Shown here: positions 16,310-53,060 of the stretch, in pieces
How the letters are laid out: each line of letters begins with the position of its first letter
Position numbering within the stretch: position 1 is the first letter of the stretch
From: Bacteroidales bacterium
Lineage (GTDB): Bacteria; Bacteroidota; Bacteroidia; Bacteroidales; UBA932
Direction: 5' to 3'
NCBI GenBank assembly: GCA_017459075.1
Contig: JAFUDQ010000035.1
Location: forward strand, 1-64,000
DNA: 64,000 nt
Notes under the pieces: model-generated
Told to the model about the DNA's origin: nothing
The model's database searches: none
Seen by the model: the letters and a program-made list of their open reading frames with translations, nothing else
Position numbers and translations under genes: made by a program

Positions 16310-17632
16310 ATGTTTGAGAATTTAAGTGACAGACTGGAAAGGTCTTTCAAGATACTGAAGGGCGAAGGAAAGATTACGGAAATCAATATTTCCGAAACTG
16401 TTAAAGATATCAGGCGCGCACTCCTTGATGCCGATGTGAGCTATCATGTTGCAAAGGATTTCTGCGACCGCGTAAAGACCAAGGCCCTCGGCCAGAACGT
16501 GATTACGGCCGTTAAGCCGCAGCAGCTCATGGTGAAGATTGTCCATGATGAGCTTGCAGAGTTCATGGGCAGTTCTTCTTATGATATCAACCTTAAAGGA
16601 AGCCCTGCGGTTGTTCTGGTAGCCGGTCTTAACGGTTCCGGTAAAACCACCTTCTCCGGCAAGCTGGCACTCCACGTTAAGAGCAAGAAGGGCATGAAGG
16701 TCTTGCTTGCCGCCTGTGATACCTTCCGTCCGGCTGCAATTGAGCAGTTGAAGGTCTTGGGTGAACAGGTTGGTGTTCCTGTTTACACTGAAGAGGGTGT
16801 AAAAGACCCCATCGGCATCGCTAAAAATGCTGTCCGTTATGCAAAGGATAACGGTTTCTCAGTAGTTATCGTGGATACCGCCGGCCGCCTCTCTGTTGAT
16901 GAGGAGCTGATGAATGAGATTTCCGCCCTGCATAAGTCTCTGGAGCCTCAGGAAACCCTGTTTGTTGTGGATGCAATGACCGGTCAGGATGCTGTTGCAA
17001 CGGCCAAGGCTTTCAACGACAGGCTTGATTTTGACGGTGTTGTACTTACGAAGATGGATGGTGATACCCGTGGTGGCGCCGCCCTTTCCATCAAGGCAGT
17101 GGTTGGAAAGCCTATCAAGTTCGTTTCTTCAGGAGAGAAGATGGAGGCTCTGGATATCTTCCATCCGGACCGCGTCGCAGACCGTATCCTGGGCATGGGT
17201 GATGTTGTTACCCTCGTTGAGAAAGCTCAGGAGCAGTTTGATGAGAAGCAGGCTCGTGAGCTTAAGAAGAAGCTTGCTAAGGATAAGTTTACGTTCATGG
17301 ATTTCTATGAGCAGATTCAGCAGGTTAAGAAGATGGGTAATATCAAAGACCTGGCTTCTATGATTCCTGGTGTTGGCAAGGCTCTTAAGGATGTTGATAT
17401 TGACAATGATTCGTTCAAGGGTGTTGAGGCTATTATTATGTCGATGACTCCTTATGAGCGTGAGCATCCGGAGGTTATTAATGGCAGTCGCCGTAAGCGT
17501 ATTGCTGATGGTTCCGGTACTTCGATTCCTGAGGTGAATCGTTTGCTGAAGCAGTTTGAGAGTACGCGTAAGATGATGAAGACTGCGATGACCGGCAACC
17601 TTATGCAGAAGATGAAAGGTTTCAGAAGATAA
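16310..17632 (+). CDS. ffh: Signal recognition particle protein
   Basis: This 440-residue SRP54 GTPase has an N-terminal helical bundle and a G domain (GLNGSGKTTFSGKLA, DTFRPAAIEQL, DTAGRLSVDEE, TKMDGDTRGGAALS). A C-terminal M domain follows, rich in Met and basic residues, with the GSRRKRIADGSG RNA-binding loop. It binds signal sequences and targets nascent membrane proteins to the translocon. It ends at a perfect bidirectional terminator. Confidence 0.97.
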   Translation: MFENLSDRLERSFKILKGEGKITEINISETVKDIRRALLDADVSYHVAKDFCDRVKTKALGQNVITAVKPQQLMVKIVHDELAEFMGSSSYDINLKGSPAVVLVAGLNGSGKTTFSGKLALHVKSKKGMKVLLAACDTFRPAAIEQLKVLGEQVGVPVYTEEGVKDPIGIAKNAVRYAKDNGFSVVIVDTAGRLSVDEELMNEISALHKSLEPQETLFVVDAMTGQDAVATAKAFNDRLDFDGVVLTKMDGDTRGGAALSIKAVVGKPIKFVSSGEKMEALDIFHPDRVADRILGMGDVVTLVEKAQEQFDEKQARELKKKLAKDKFTFMDFYEQIQQVKKMGNIKDLASMIPGVGKALKDVDIDNDSFKGVEAIIMSMTPYEREHPEVINGSRRKRIADGSGTSIPEVNRLLKQFESTRKMMKTAMTGNLMQKMKGFRR

Positions 17633-24899: not shown

Positions 24900-26870
24900 A
24901 TGAAAGATTACGGATTCTTCAGGGTTGCTGCCGCCGCTCCTTCGGTTAAACCTTCGGATGTTAAATATAATCTGGAGCAGATAGTTTTGCAGGCCGATGC
25001 TGCCGATGCCGCAGGCGTCTCACTGCTGGTGTTCCCGGAGCTCTCTGTTACCGGATATACCTGCGCAGACCTTTTTGGCCAGCAGCTCCTTCTTCGCGGT
25101 GCGGAGGATGTTATAGAACAGTTGAAAACCAAGTCTTTAGGCTGGAATGCGACCATCATCGTCGGAGTTCCCGTACCTTTCATGGGAAGGTTGTACAACT
25201 GCGCCGCTGTTATCAGCCGTGGCCACATTCACGGACTCGTTCCCAAGATTTATCTGCCGGACTATAATGAATTTTATGAAGGCCGATGGTTCTCTTCAGG
25301 CAAAGATTTCATGCCGGAGCTGGCAACCGTTTTCTATGCCGGGGAACAGGTGGAGCTCTCTCCTCTTCAGATGTTCAAGATTGGCAAGGCTGTAGTTGCC
25401 GTTGAAATCTGCGAGGATTTGTGGACTCCTCTTCCGCCTTCTTCCTATCACGCATTATGCGGGGCGACGGTTATTGCAAACCTCTCTGCAAGCAACGAAG
25501 TATTACTTAAACACGCATATCGTAAAGACTTGATATCCAATCAGTCTGCAAGAACGTCATCTGCGTATGTATATGCTTCAAGTGGCTTCGGTGAGTCTAC
25601 CCAGGATCTAGTTTTTGCCGGCAGTTCCGTCATTTGTGAAAACGGTTCCGTTCTGGCAGAGAATGAGCGGTTCCAGACTTCCGGCAGCTTTATTATTGCC
25701 GATGTTGACCTTGAAAAGCTGGATGCCCTCCGACGCAAGCAAAGCACCTTCGGCGCTGTTGCTCCGGACGGTATGAGTTCCGCCGGCCTTCGTCCTTTAT
25801 ATAATATTGCAGACCTTGGTAATGCGGCCGATACGGATTTTGAATCCGCCCTTTACAGATACATTGAGCCTCTGCCTTTTGTTCCTGGAGGGAATCCGGC
25901 GGAGCTTGATTCCAGGGCAAGGGAGATTATTTCCATCCAGGTGGCCGGGCTTGCCACAAGGCTTAGCCATATTAATTGCAAGACAGCCGTAATAGGTATT
26001 TCAGGCGGTCTGGACAGTACTTTGGCCCTGCTTGTTACTGTTATGGCGTTTGACAAACTGGGTTTGGACAGGAGGGGAGTGTACGGCGTTACTATGCCGG
26101 GCTTCGGTACTACAGACCGTACATATAACAATGCCATCTCACTAATGCAGTCTCTTGGAATTACCTTGCAGGAGATTCCTATCGGAGCCGCCGTTATGCA
26201 GCATTTTAGTGATATCGGCCAAAATCCTGACAATCATGATGTTACGTATGAGAATTCGCAGGCTCGCGAGCGTACGCAGATTCTCATGGACCTTGCTAAC
26301 AAGCTTGGAGGCATTGTTGTTGGTACGGGTGATTTGTCTGAGCTGGCTCTTGGCTGGGCTACCTATAACGGAGATCACATGTCTATGTATGGCGTAAATG
26401 CCGGTGTTCCAAAGACTCTTGTCCGTTATCTTGTTGGCTGGGCTTCAGCGAATTATTTTGCAACCACGGGTAGCGGCGCTTCGGCTGTTCTTAATGACAT
26501 TATTGATACTCCTATTAGTCCGGAACTTATTCCGGCTGGTAAGGATGGAGAGATTTTGCAGAAGACTGAAGATCTTGTGGGGCCTTATGAACTGCATGAT
26601 TTCTTCCTTTATAATTTCTTCCGCTTCGGTTATACTCCCGACAAGCTTTTCTTCCTTGCGAAGAAGGCTCACGGCGGTTATCCGGATTATGTTATTCGCA
26701 AGTGGCTCAGGACTTTCCTGCGGCGTTTCTTTAACCAGCAGTTCAAGCGGTCATGCCTGCCGGATGGCCCCAAGGTCGGTTCCGTAGCCCTGTCGCCTCG
26801 CGGCGACCTCAGGATGCCAAGTGATGCGTCTTCCAACCTATGGTTGTCAGACGCATCACTGGCCGACTAA
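24900..26870 (+). CDS. nadE: Glutamine-dependent NAD+ synthetase
   Basis: This 656-residue fusion has an N-terminal nitrilase-type glutaminase (Glu in VFPELSVTGY, Lys in PKIYLPDYNEFYEG, Cys in VEICEDLW) and a C-terminal synthetase with the P-loop GISGGLDSTLALL. It converts deamido-NAD+ to NAD+ using ammonia released from glutamine. Length and domain order are normal. The last ~17 codons are unusual in forming a 12-bp inverted repeat in the DNA (26820-26860), so the C-terminal SDASSNLWLSDASLAD segment contains the repeated SDAS. Confidence 0.95.
   Translation: MKDYGFFRVAAAAPSVKPSDVKYNLEQIVLQADAADAAGVSLLVFPELSVTGYTCADLFGQQLLLRGAEDVIEQLKTKSLGWNATIIVGVPVPFMGRLYNCAAVISRGHIHGLVPKIYLPDYNEFYEGRWFSSGKDFMPELATVFYAGEQVELSPLQMFKIGKAVVAVEICEDLWTPLPPSSYHALCGATVIANLSASNEVLLKHAYRKDLISNQSARTSSAYVYASSGFGESTQDLVFAGSSVICENGSVLAENERFQTSGSFIIADVDLEKLDALRRKQSTFGAVAPDGMSSAGLRPLYNIADLGNAADTDFESALYRYIEPLPFVPGGNPAELDSRAREIISIQVAGLATRLSHINCKTAVIGISGGLDSTLALLVTVMAFDKLGLDRRGVYGVTMPGFGTTDRTYNNAISLMQSLGITLQEIPIGAAVMQHFSDIGQNPDNHDVTYENSQARERTQILMDLANKLGGIVVGTGDLSELALGWATYNGDHMSMYGVNAGVPKTLVRYLVGWASANYFATTGSGASAVLNDIIDTPISPELIPAGKDGEILQKTEDLVGPYELHDFFLYNFFRFGYTPDKLFFLAKKAHGGYPDYVIRKWLRTFLRRFFNQQFKRSCLPDGPKVGSVALSPRGDLRMPSDASSNLWLSDASLAD
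26820..26860. other. Inverted repeat inside the 3' end of nadE
   Basis: AGTGATGCGTCT (26820-26831) and AGACGCATCACT (26849-26860) pair perfectly, with AACC/GGTT pairing inside the loop. It is coding sequence ending 10 bp before the stop. It lacks a T-run, so it may stabilise the mRNA end rather than terminate. Confidence 0.7.
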
Positions 26871-26937: not shown

Positions 26938-27065
26938 TTTTACAACGAGTATTACTGTCTGATCCGGTTCGCTTCGCTCATCCCACCATCGGCTACGCCG
27001 ACGGTCCCCCCGTTCACGAGGACACGGGCGTCCACGCCTCTCAGACAGTAATACTCGTTGTAAAA
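26938..27065. repeat. Palindromic dispersed element, copy 1 (conserved core, private arms)
   Basis: Perfect 25-bp inverted arms (26938-26962 and 27041-27065) enclose a 78-bp core (26963-27040). The core begins TCCGGTTCGCTTCGCTCATC and ends CCACGCCTC, exactly like the core at 51116-51204, whereas the arms have no similarity to the arms there. Inside the core are hairpins CGGC-TAC-GCCG and GGAC-ACGGGC-GTCC, the latter bracketed by GAGG/CCTC. It lies between the converging nadE and pnp genes. Confidence 0.85.
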
Positions 27066-27196: not shown

Positions 27197-27257
27197 GTCA
27201 ACAGTCCTAGACTTATCGAATCATAATGATTCGATAAGTCTGGTAAAGACTGTTGAC
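27197..27257. terminator. Long nested palindrome across the pnp stop codon
   Basis: Arms of 15 bp (27209-27223 and 27227-27241) are separated by 3 bp, and outside them GTCAACAGTC (27197-27206) pairs with GACTGTTGAC (27248-27257). The right half is the last ~11 codons of pnp; the left half is an inverted copy of that coding sequence after the stop at 27221-27223. It probably acts as a terminator or 3'-end protector. Confidence 0.7.
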
Positions 27258-28054
27258 ATCTTGTCGGCGGCAGCGTTCGCGGCAACCACAACATCATCGC
27301 CATCGTTCACATAATCCTCTGCATACTCATCATGAGCCTCATTGGTAATGACAGACATACCAAAAACAGGAACACTCATGTGACGGGCAATAATAACCTC
27401 CGGAACAGTAGACATACCGGTAGCATCGGCACCGATAGTACGGATATACTTATACTCCGCAGGAGTCTCATAAGTTGGGCCGGTACCGGCAAAATAAACG
27501 CCCTTGTGCACAGGAATACCCTCCTCAGCAGCAATAGCCTCAGCCCTCTTGATAAGCCCAAGATCATAAGGACGGGTCATGTCAGGGAAACGGGGGCCGA
27601 ACTCATCCATGTTCTTGCCAATCAGAGGGTTGGGAATATGGCCGATATGGTCTTTGATAATCATCAGGTCTCCAACGTGATAGTCATAATTGACTCCACC
27701 TGCGGCATTTGAAACAAAGAGATATTTGATGCCAACAACAACCATTACCCTTGTAGGCAGGGTAACCATCTCCATAGGATAACCCTCGTAATAATGGATT
27801 CTGCCCTGCATAGCCATGACGGTTTTGCCGCCCAGCTCTCCAATGATGAAGTTTCCTTTATGGCCGATGGCAGTAGAAACCGGGAATCCCGGGATTTCAC
27901 GGTAGGGGATAACAACAGGGTCTGCAATCTTGTCTGCAAGTTTGCCAAGACCGCTTCCCAGGATGATGCCCACAGAGGGCTTCAAACCTTTATCTGCAAG
28001 CACGCCCTTGATATAATCGGCTGCTGTGTAAATTCTTTCAACTCTTGGATCCAT
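27221..28054 (-). CDS. Purine-nucleoside phosphorylase
   Basis: This 277-residue trimeric-type PNP has [13 protein letters not shown] (phosphate loop), [24 protein letters not shown], the base-binding [16 protein letters not shown] segment and the [21 protein letters not shown] motifs. It splits purine nucleosides with phosphate for salvage. It follows the deaminase gene by 6 bp, a sensible nucleoside-salvage pair. Its 3' end is mirrored by a palindrome. Confidence 0.93.
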
Positions 28055-49970: not shown

Positions 49971-50993
<1,023 letters not shown>

Positions 50994-51092: not shown

Positions 51093-51227
51093 ACACCAAA
51101 GCACAGCCCTCCCAATCCGGTTCGCTTCGCTCATCCCACCATACGTGGGCCTGACGGCCGCACTTTGGTCCCCCCATTTACGAGGCCATGGGTGGCCACG
51201 CCTCTTGGGAGGGCTGTGCTTTGGTGT
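51093..51227. repeat. Palindromic dispersed element, copy 2 (conserved core, private arms)
   Basis: Perfect 23-bp arms (51093-51115 and 51205-51227) enclose an 89-bp core (51116-51204) that starts and ends exactly like the core at 26963-27040. The arm sequence (ACACCAAAGCACAGCCC... on the left) is unrelated to copy 1. Core hairpins change in step with copy 1: GGCC-ATGGGT-GGCC here where copy 1 has GGAC-ACGGGC-GTCC. GTGGGCC/GGCCGCAC here replaces CGGC/GCCG. It lies between gapA and the CocE-type gene. Confidence 0.85.
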
Positions 51228-51252
51228 ATATGGCAGAAAATTGCTATATTAG
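51220..51252 (+). promoter_or_regulatory. Possible promoter using the element's right arm
   Basis: TTTG at 51220-51223, inside the right arm of the palindromic element, lies 21 bp before TATATTAG (51245-51252), one mismatch from TAnnTTTG. The ATG of the hydrolase is at 51270. The duplicated TATGGCAGAAAA (at 51229 and again at 51269) flanks this site. Confidence 0.4.
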
Positions 51253-51269
51253 CAGAAAAATGTACTTGT

Positions 51270-53042
51270 ATGGCAGAAAAGGTTACAGTTAGGTTTCTGA
51301 AGGATAATTACTCCAAGCGGGAGGTGATGGTGCCGATGCGGGATGGGGTGAGGTTGTATACGGCTGTGTATGAGCCGGTGGATGGTGCAGACCCCGGGAC
51401 AGGGGAGGCTGGCGTTCATCCGGTGATTATGATTCGTACGCCGTTCCCGCTGAATCCTTATGGAAAGACTTTCACTAAGGACTTAAGGACGTACATGAAC
51501 CTTTTTGCAGCAGCGCGGTACATTATTGTGTTCCAGAATGTCCGGGGCCAGTTTATGAGCGAAGGGGAATTTGAAAACGTCAGGCCATTCGTCTCTGGCA
51601 AGACTCCAGGCCAGATTAGCGGAAGTGAACCAGGCCCGGTAGATGAGGCAACAGATACGTACGATACTATAGAATGGTTGCTGGCCAATTGCCGCACTAA
51701 CGGAAAAGTTGGCGTAAAAGGCATGTCTTACCCCGGCTTTTATGCGACGATGGCTTCTCTTAGCGGTCATCCTGCACTTAAAGCCGTCTCTCCTCAAGCC
51801 CCTGTAACAGACTGGTTTATGGGCGACGATGCCCATATTTCTGGCATTACCCAGTTGCCGCTTTATCCTTTTGGCGCGTCATTTTTCAAGACGCGAAAAG
51901 GCCCCGGCGGCCGCTGGCCCAAGCCTGTTGCAGACCTTCCTGAAGGCGACTTGTATGATGCCTTTATGAATGCCAGTAGACGTCCGATGGCAAGCCTTAA
52001 GGACAAACTGCCTTTTGTAGATGAAATGCTTAGTCACCCTGACTACGATGACTTCTGGCAGCAGCGCAATGCAGCATCGGCTTTAAAACCGCAAAATTTG
52101 CCCGGTGGCAAATTCCCGGCCTTTCTCATAGTAGCAGGATTTTATGACGCTGAAGATTGCTACGGCCCCTTTGAAGTTTACGGTAAGCTAAGGGCTCAAG
52201 CACCTGATACAGAAGTATTTCTGTGCGCTGGCCCCTGGTATCACGGAGCATGGAAAAAGTCCTGGTACAGGAACATCGGCGATGTATGGTTCACCCCTTG
52301 GTCCGCCGAATACTTCCGTGAGCAGGTGGAATTCCCTTTCTTCGAGCATTACCTGAATGGCAAACCTTCGTTGCCGGCAAAAGTTAACATTCTCCCTTCC
52401 GGGGAGACAATGCCTGATGCCGATGCTGCCGGGAGCCGGGCCCGTGGTAAATCATCTATTATCAACGCCCGCCCGGACTGGATGAGGATGGAACAGTGGC
52501 CTCCGGTAGGAAGAGGAGTGGAAATTACGCTGCCTTCCGGCTCAATTATTTCAAATCCTTTGCGCGCAGTCCCTTATACAGATGGCATTCTGGAATATTT
52601 CTCGCGGGAAGCCTTTGTGGCAGACCAGCGTTTCGCCTCCCGCCGGCCTGATGTTTATGTCTATTCTACAGATAAACTGAAGGAGCCTTTGAAGGTGTAC
52701 GGAAAGGTAACTGTGAACCTATCCATGACTGTAGACCAGCCGGATGCCGATATTATTGTCAAGCTTATTGACGTTCGCCCGGACGGTTATCAGCTTCCTG
52801 TCAGAATCGGCGCAAAGCCTTTAAGATACCGTAACTCGTTCAGCGCTCCTGAACCGGCAGAACCCGGAAAGGAATATCAGCTTACCGTCGAACTGACAGA
52901 TATCGCCCATCATTTCATGCCCGGCCACAGGCTGATGCTCCAGATTCAGGGTACGATGTTCCCTCTGCTGGAACTTCCTGCCATAAAAGCCCCTGTGGAA
53001 ATTTCAATCAATGAAGGAATAATAAGAATGACGGCCGTGTAG
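51270..53042 (+). CDS. CocE/NonD-type (S15) hydrolase
   Basis: This is a 590-residue protein from the ATG at 51270 (MAEKVTVRFLKDNYSKREV); a longer opening would start inside the palindromic element. The alpha/beta-hydrolase domain has the nucleophile in VKGMSYPGFYATM, a probable Asp in VAGFYDAEDCYG and His in CAGPWYHGAWKK. The C-terminal jelly-roll domain of the X-Pro dipeptidyl-peptidase/cocaine-esterase family follows (RPDVYVYSTDKLKEPLKVYG, HHFMPGHRLMLQIQG). There is no signal peptide, so it is probably cytoplasmic. Its last seven codons form one arm of a terminator shared with glnS. Confidence 0.85.
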   Translation: MAEKVTVRFLKDNYSKREVMVPMRDGVRLYTAVYEPVDGADPGTGEAGVHPVIMIRTPFPLNPYGKTFTKDLRTYMNLFAAARYIIVFQNVRGQFMSEGEFENVRPFVSGKTPGQISGSEPGPVDEATDTYDTIEWLLANCRTNGKVGVKGMSYPGFYATMASLSGHPALKAVSPQAPVTDWFMGDDAHISGITQLPLYPFGASFFKTRKGPGGRWPKPVADLPEGDLYDAFMNASRRPMASLKDKLPFVDEMLSHPDYDDFWQQRNAASALKPQNLPGGKFPAFLIVAGFYDAEDCYGPFEVYGKLRAQAPDTEVFLCAGPWYHGAWKKSWYRNIGDVWFTPWSAEYFREQVEFPFFEHYLNGKPSLPAKVNILPSGETMPDADAAGSRARGKSSIINARPDWMRMEQWPPVGRGVEITLPSGSIISNPLRAVPYTDGILEYFSREAFVADQRFASRRPDVYVYSTDKLKEPLKVYGKVTVNLSMTVDQPDADIIVKLIDVRPDGYQLPVRIGAKPLRYRNSFSAPEPAEPGKEYQLTVELTDIAHHFMPGHRLMLQIQGTMFPLLELPAIKAPVEISINEGIIRMTAV

Positions 53043-53060
53043 CCGTCATTCTTATTATTC
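53017..53060. terminator. Shared terminator built from both coding ends
   Basis: Perfect 19-bp arms (53017-53035 and 53042-53060) flank a 6-bp loop CGTGTA. The left arm is hydrolase coding sequence, and the right arm includes the last base of the hydrolase stop and the glnS stop (53055-53057). T-rich sequence lies on both sides in the correct orientation. Confidence 0.85.

Follow-up and report, generated by a model that had tools for sequence, protein, structure and literature searches.

A pseudoknotted core within copy-specific stems: an abundant palindromic repeat family of uncultured Bacteroidales gut bacteria

How does a repeat keep its center constant when the long paired arms that enclose it belong to one copy alone? 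The window, by which we mean the whole 64,000-nucleotide stretch of a Bacteroidales contig analyzed here, raises this question twice. Copy 1 (26938 to 27065, 128 bp in all) consists of a 78-nt core flanked by 25-nt arms that are 100% complementary, and copy 2 (51093 to 51227, 135 bp in all) of an 89-nt core flanked by 23-nt arms that are equally complementary. Of the 18 inverted repeats listed for the window (distance of at most 300), none with full complementarity is longer than these two. The first-pass annotation claimed that the cores match up to exact boundaries and that the arms are specific to each copy, and our searches bear this out: the core limits coincide with the arm boundaries in both copies, the two cores align at 79% over most of the core, the arm sequences of the two copies are unrelated, and in the 2.3-Mb assembly each arm matches only itself and its own partner (E ≤ 10). 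The remaining perfect hairpins of the window (loop 3 to 30, arm of at least 12) number three and are shorter, with a maximum of 19 bp; one perfect 19-bp hairpin with a 6-nt loop lies at 53017 to 53060, at the end of the open reading frame (ORF) 51165 to 53042. Perfect hairpins with a 1-nt loop measure 20 bp at 17628 and 16 bp at 27209.

Both cores read on the minus strand, which we call the core-sense strand. The inverted-repeat listing places the arms of copy 1 at 26938 to 26962 (plus-strand coordinates; the 3' arm of the core-sense strand) and 27041 to 27065, around a core at 26963 to 27040 that was found by DNA search and by a covariance model (CM match 26959 to 27044, 78 bits). In copy 2, the arms at 51093 to 51115 and 51205 to 51227 (plus strand, same listing) enclose a core at 51116 to 51204, found in the same two ways (CM match 51112 to 51208, 53.8 bits). 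Gene and family searches put copy 1 between a convergent pair, an NAD(+) synthase gene on its left (24900 to 26870, plus strand) and a purine-nucleoside phosphorylase gene on its right (27221 to 28054, minus strand), and copy 2 downstream of a glyceraldehyde-3-phosphate dehydrogenase gene (49995 to 50993, plus strand). An intrinsic terminator, a stem followed by a U tract, was considered for copy 1 and rejected: what comes next is GTAAAAAAAGAC on the minus strand and ATTGTAAATACC on the plus strand.

Members of the family mostly measure about 100 to 170 bp, a folded core closed by a stem of about 20 to 35 bp. The core comprises a 7-bp hairpin (P1), an H-type pseudoknot (P2) that pairs the P1 loop with the next single strand, and two further hairpins (P3 and P4). 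In copy 1, the 5' strand of P1, CGTGGAC, occupies 27030 to 27036 on the minus strand by position counted on the sequence, with its partner at 27017 to 27023 and one T.T mismatch, and the helix is supported by covariation. P2 joins CCCGT within the P1 loop (27024 to 27028, minus strand) to ACGGG (27009 to 27013), with 99.2% of cells paired in the covariation alignment, and covariation and folding both indicate the P3 hairpin ACCGTCGGC-GTA-GCCGATGGT (26985 to 27005, minus strand). The pseudoknot changes in a compensatory manner, from CCCGT/ACGGG in copy 1 to CCCAT/ATGGG in copy 2 and CCCTC/GAGGG in locus L008. That the core is structured, as had been proposed from the letters of these two copies, is supported by covariance analysis of 52 copies, which scores 0.232 against 0.078 for shuffled and 0.033 to 0.066 for slid alignments, although P3 is one column out of register between two core classes in that alignment. 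Double changes occur in 11 of the 20 core pairs of P1, P2, and P3 across the 52 copies, a count that understates P1 and P2 because retrieval by an exact pattern fixes the 5' core bases. P3 and P4 are optional, since L134 lacks P3 and several copies carry TTTA in place of P4. Entire elements fold much better than shuffled sequence (z of −7.0 to −8.8); the cores alone do no better than shuffles by single-sequence folding energy (z of 0.15 and −0.08), a result that we count as neutral for core structure because the program does not model pseudoknots. The GATGAG..CGAA of the core resembles the hammerhead core, a likeness that we dropped because GATTTA takes its place in several copies.

In the window's own genome, a DNA search found the core at seven places, and the covariance model, built from 52 copies, gave 29 matches at E ≤ 1, including two pairs of identical duplicates; by eye, the copies of this genome fall into at least three subfamilies. 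Among 39 genomes searched at E ≤ 0.001, copies were present in 20 of the 24 from the genus, absent from the other four, and absent from all 15 from other families, with the highest numbers in G011 (40 copies) and in the 98% complete G016 (35 copies). An order-wide draw of 198 genomes yielded four positives, the window's own genome, one of another genus in the family, and two of other families, which places copies outside the genus in three genomes. At least 120 stretches of genome contigs carry the exact 5' core pattern, and among the 80 matches listed the titles are Bacteroidales, Bacteroidia, Candidatus Cryptobacteroides, or Candidatus Merdivivens; viral contigs gave no exact match to one core pattern. 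The earlier statement that no named element behaves in this manner agrees with the searches made: Rfam gave no element match in the window at gathering thresholds nor in eight loci up to E = 5, and among the open-access papers listed by our literature searches none concerns such an element in Bacteroidales. As far as these searches show, the family is unnamed and undescribed, and it is abundant in a large group of gut bacteria that are uncultured.

Several individual loci deserve mention. In L192 (G029) and L283 (G326), from two families, the element, its arms, and its right flank are largely alike, which points to a larger piece having been transferred horizontally. In L020 (G013:C2), the element is part of a unit of about 305 bp that is present three times head to tail, and two family copies lie adjacent at L023:1785-1945 (the second recognized by eye). 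A copy at L125:46-273 has 78-bp arms with one mismatch, and at L095:1800- perfect 23-bp arms surround a differing core, CGTGCTACCCCCTGGCCGCAGGGGG.., perhaps a distant subfamily. A larger autonomous form with a distant 3' arm was considered for the low-scoring copies and rejected: within the fetched locus, the only match of at least 11 nt is the near one in L108.

Copies often sit at gene 3' ends, with mixed direction relative to the genes. When 146 copies were placed against mechanical ORFs of at least 100 aa, leaving out those within 400 nt of a locus end, 44 lay between convergent, 43 between codirectional, and 10 between divergent frames, 42 lay inside an ORF (16 sense and 26 antisense), and seven were unclear; the class inside ORFs is an upper bound, inflated by mechanical antisense frames such as the longest frame of L013, which is on the wrong strand. 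Some insertions within genes nevertheless keep the frame open. Compared with an empty homologue in L049, one RecG carries a clean in-frame addition of 44 residues after KGP, in an alignment of 72% identity over the whole length (560/777, gaps included), and the open frame also runs through copies in DnaX, PcrA/UvrD-type helicase, and RlmB-like methyltransferase genes, hosts that were named by family search.

The arms are well paired throughout the family but not always perfect: among 156 arm pairs (score of 10 or more, identical arms removed; median length 23), 58 are perfect like those of the window, and 166 of 3470 columns are non-Watson-Crick. These mismatches are lopsided, with 67 G.U against 30 A.C and 29 G.A against 10 C.T (144 G.U against 101 A.C at a looser arm cut). 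When one arm was kept from each of 55 arm clusters, the kinds compatible with folding of the core-sense strand (G.U, G.A, and G.G) outnumbered their mirror kinds 35 to 14 (P = 0.004); taken singly, the excess of G.U over A.C (23 to 9) holds and that of G.A over C.T (9 to 5) does not. We read this bias as probable selection for one strand to fold, whether in the form of RNA or of single-stranded DNA. Coevolution of the arms as a stem, one of the two possibilities raised at the outset, is clearest in subfamily III of the window's genome, in which the arms are homologous: of 36 differing cells, 27 show a change in both arms (a transversion in 14 of these), three are wobbles, and six are mismatches.

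Nor are the arms always different, although those of the two window copies are unrelated. Common arms unite L022, L023, L036, L186, L187, and L206, as they do L282, L285, L288, and L294 and, in part, subfamily III; in G476, the arms are constant and the cores vary. Identity at arm positions 6 to 20 is 0.35 in subfamily II of the window's genome and 0.66 in subfamily III, compared with 0.26 for shuffled arms. Shared arms and frequent imperfection, the two findings that the first-pass annotation had named as refuting its reading, each hold in part. The element is therefore to some extent a dispersed repeat of the ordinary kind, though one whose stem evolves in an unusual way.

What, then, is that way? 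The account that we hold probable, if not by a wide measure, is a nonautonomous, dispersed palindromic element in which template switching rewrites the two halves of the stem together, as a matched pair, and selection for the folding of one strand acts as a filter. The element arrives as a whole hairpin, core and arms together, because most of the empty sites that could be resolved lack both. In L249 and L250 relative to the filled L195 and in L324 relative to L321, core and arms are missing jointly, with no hairpin left behind; the same holds in L049 relative to L013, except perhaps for the outer 7 nt. L325 lacks the core and arms of L319 and has a terminator-like hairpin, and L319 has that hairpin and the element as well. 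Flank identity at these empty sites is about 70 to 93%, and no clear target-site duplication was seen at the compared filled and empty sites. Three further comparisons (L085/L097, L029/L118, and L317/L327) gave no reading, and L195/L247 could be read on the right side only.

After insertion, the arms drift at the background rate, mostly changing on both sides together. Across nine orthologous pairs, three of which come from one trio, identity is 0.878 in the flanks, 0.871 in the arms, and 0.961 in the core, and the arm changes are mostly paired. The core can lie in either direction between the same arms, with one strand as the folding strand. In the close genomes G001 and G154, it is flipped between its arms in two of the four pairs resolved on both flanks (L314/L322 and L305/L312) and kept in direction in L300/L301 and L302/L311; L308/L313, split across contigs in G001, and L320/L323, which do not align as orthologues, were left out of this count. 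L302/L311 differ by two swaps of A:T to T:A, and their arms are perfect in both species. Template switching, which creates and maintains hairpins according to a previous study (PMC8794818), would at replication keep and sometimes extend the pairing of the arms and could also flip the core, and selection on the foldback of the core-sense strand would remove poor stems. For paired arm change and core flips it appears to be the best mechanism on hand, a judgment that we draw from the observed pattern.

Drift of this kind fails to explain one set of copies. Over 68 nt, five cores from G001 and G154 do not differ at all, and the arms of that core type (12 copies) are only 38% alike at positions 6 to 20, against 26% for shuffled arms. 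At the orthologous rates, so much arm change should bring many core changes. Because identical cores have nearly unrelated arms, one of two processes seems needed: either the cores are homogenized by gene conversion or the arms are renewed at copying. The same P3 in all three subfamilies of the window's genome is a hint of core gene conversion. The second process leads to a tentative alternative that we consider possible, namely that at each move or copying the stem is written anew, perfectly self-complementary, rather than being passed on along with the core or derived from the old flank. If true, a conserved folded core would travel with disposable, individually unique arms. Such renewal is not obligatory, because the group of L022 and the copies of G476 keep their arms. 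We also observed a second family of hairpins, with a short conserved loop, TTTSGGC-N-GCCT.. (TTTCGGC..GCCTGCTTTGT or near), and long copy-specific arms at the same kind of gene ends (L326:441-, L330:480-, L303:1860-, L336:555-, and L251); its own copy-specific perfect arms would make stem renewal a general process in these bacteria.

It had been suggested instead that insertion itself produces the arms by copying the flanking target in inverted form, for which snap-back or template-switch copying could serve; we now think this unlikely. At L309 (G154), compared with L312, the outer part of the right arm continues the end of a gene that G001 also has (by eye, 21 of 23 nt agree), and beside unrelated DNA the left arm repeats the right in inverted form, as inverted copying predicts; this site, however, is also rearranged, which makes it one complex event. 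The cores of L317 and L321, which lie 2 kb from each other, are near-identical and their arms agree in the inner 20 nt, but the outer ends differ and yet largely pair. Inverted copying would also account for arms that match nothing else in their genome, as in 12 sets of arms from the window's genome, whose 24 matches (E ≤ 10) are all to these arms or their partners, a result that speaks against copying of the arms from elsewhere in the genome. Against it as a general rule, core and arms are absent together at empty sites, and the empty relatives of L195, L321, and L319 show neither arm nor similar flank; L309 is the one copy that looks like inverted copying.

That the element is a structured RNA encoded by the host, regulatory or stabilizing 3' ends, kept in place by selection and occasionally copied, strikes us as rather unlikely. 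It would fit the conservation of the core at orthologous sites where flanks diverge, the strand-specific folding, the position at gene 3' ends, and one copy in another genome (L131:1105-1260), which has other arms and abuts a phosphorylase gene 63% identical to the neighbor of copy 1, on a locus with no NAD synthase. The site of copy 1 itself argues the other way. Of 29 fetched loci of relatives, 11 align on both sides; the core is absent from the interval in all 11, the interval is near zero length in four, and several carry unrelated hairpins in it. Copy numbers from 0 to 40 among congeners, insertions inside genes, and mixed direction relative to genes also speak against a host element.

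Distinctly doubtful is the reading in which a mobile loop, the core, enters hairpins already standing at gene ends, such as bidirectional terminators, with arms that are site-specific because they are the old hairpin. The 44 of 146 copies between convergent genes and the cores that lie in opposite directions within the same arms would suit it. So would hairpins without a core at sites that are filled elsewhere: perfect ones of 30 bp in G154 and 22 bp in G309 at the L297 site, one of about 30 bp in G307 (L251) at the L197 site, and one of 19 bp at the copy 1 site in the nearest relative, G188 (L340). The hairpins at the L297 and L197 sites, however, have a loop family of their own. One naked hairpin that belongs to neither loop family, perfect with 28-bp arms and an 8-nt loop, stands at L323:2288-, yet such structures are rare: 0.88 Mb contained no naked perfect hairpin (loop 3 to 30) with arms of at least 20 bp, and of the 74 perfect hairpins with such arms in all 1.47 Mb fetched, 64 could be assigned by motif to one or the other loop family, and the remaining 10 include at most four that by eye fit neither. 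The empty sites L049, L249, L250, and L324 have no hairpin to receive a loop, L319 has the element in addition to the terminator-like hairpin of L325, and homology among the arms of related copies ranges from faint to clear. Since several empty sites lack arms, 12 sets of arms of the window's genome find no match elsewhere in it, and naked hairpins are rare, the arms as a rule come from none of three sources: the flank, other parts of the genome, or a hairpin already in place.

Highly improbable is a classical miniature inverted-repeat transposable element (MITE) with decayed or replaced terminal repeats and nothing special about its arms: some groups do share arms, and copies of one such group adjoin a DDE transposase gene (PF13751), but decay predicts mismatches where subfamily III shows mostly paired changes, the conserved part in the window's genome is the center rather than the ends, and the window copies have perfect, unrelated arms. 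That transposase, presumably of the IS1182 type, was the sole transposase among the 25 largest recurring gene clusters near copies, occurring at three loci, and no mobilizing gene was found among them; the largest cluster, at 11 loci, consists of ABC transporters. In L064:53-1610, the transposase gene lies next to the first copy, and L023, with its two adjacent copies, holds an apparent remnant of it. A Y1 transposase or a reverse transcriptase as a needed partner was rejected, given no match to Y1_Tnp or RVT_1 at E ≤ 1e-5 in G016, which has 35 copies; the less complete G004, G014, and G005 likewise gave no Y1_Tnp match at that threshold, and others gave weak partial ones.

The family is of interest for its pseudoknotted core and its in-frame insertions in housekeeping genes. 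Because its identical cores occur within nearly unrelated, often perfect stems, it is also a natural system in which to ask what brings long hairpins into being and keeps them perfect: compensatory selection, template switching, or rewriting at insertion. For template switching, the flipped cores of close species offer a direct test.

Several known systems resemble the element in part. REP and REPIN sequences with their RAYT proteins are hairpin repeats at gene 3' ends, a position that many of our copies share; their Y1 transposase, however, had no match in the 98% complete G016 with its 35 copies. In chloroplast DNA, small loops between inverted repeats flip between close relatives, whereas the loop that flips in our elements is a core conserved across a repeat family. 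MITEs are likewise small, multicopy, and presumably moved in trans, but they have conserved, shared terminal inverted repeats, and most copies in the window's genome have no common arms; of the other MITE hallmarks, we saw no clear target duplication and a DDE transposase beside three loci only. The hairpins made by template switching have perfect stems and change on both sides at once, as here, but they are described for RNA genes rather than a dispersed repeat (PMC8794818), and their application to this family is by analogy. Closest in behavior are the Rickettsia palindromic elements, which are dispersed palindromes of about 150 bp that sit in frame in unrelated genes (PMC10969869). Our elements have a similar size (128 and 135 bp), many copies (29 CM matches in the genome), and in-frame insertions in unrelated protein genes (RecG, PcrA/UvrD-type, DnaX, and RlmB-like). 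Compared by description, they differ from their rickettsial counterparts in belonging to another phylum and in combining a conserved, pseudoknotted center with a stem specific to each copy.
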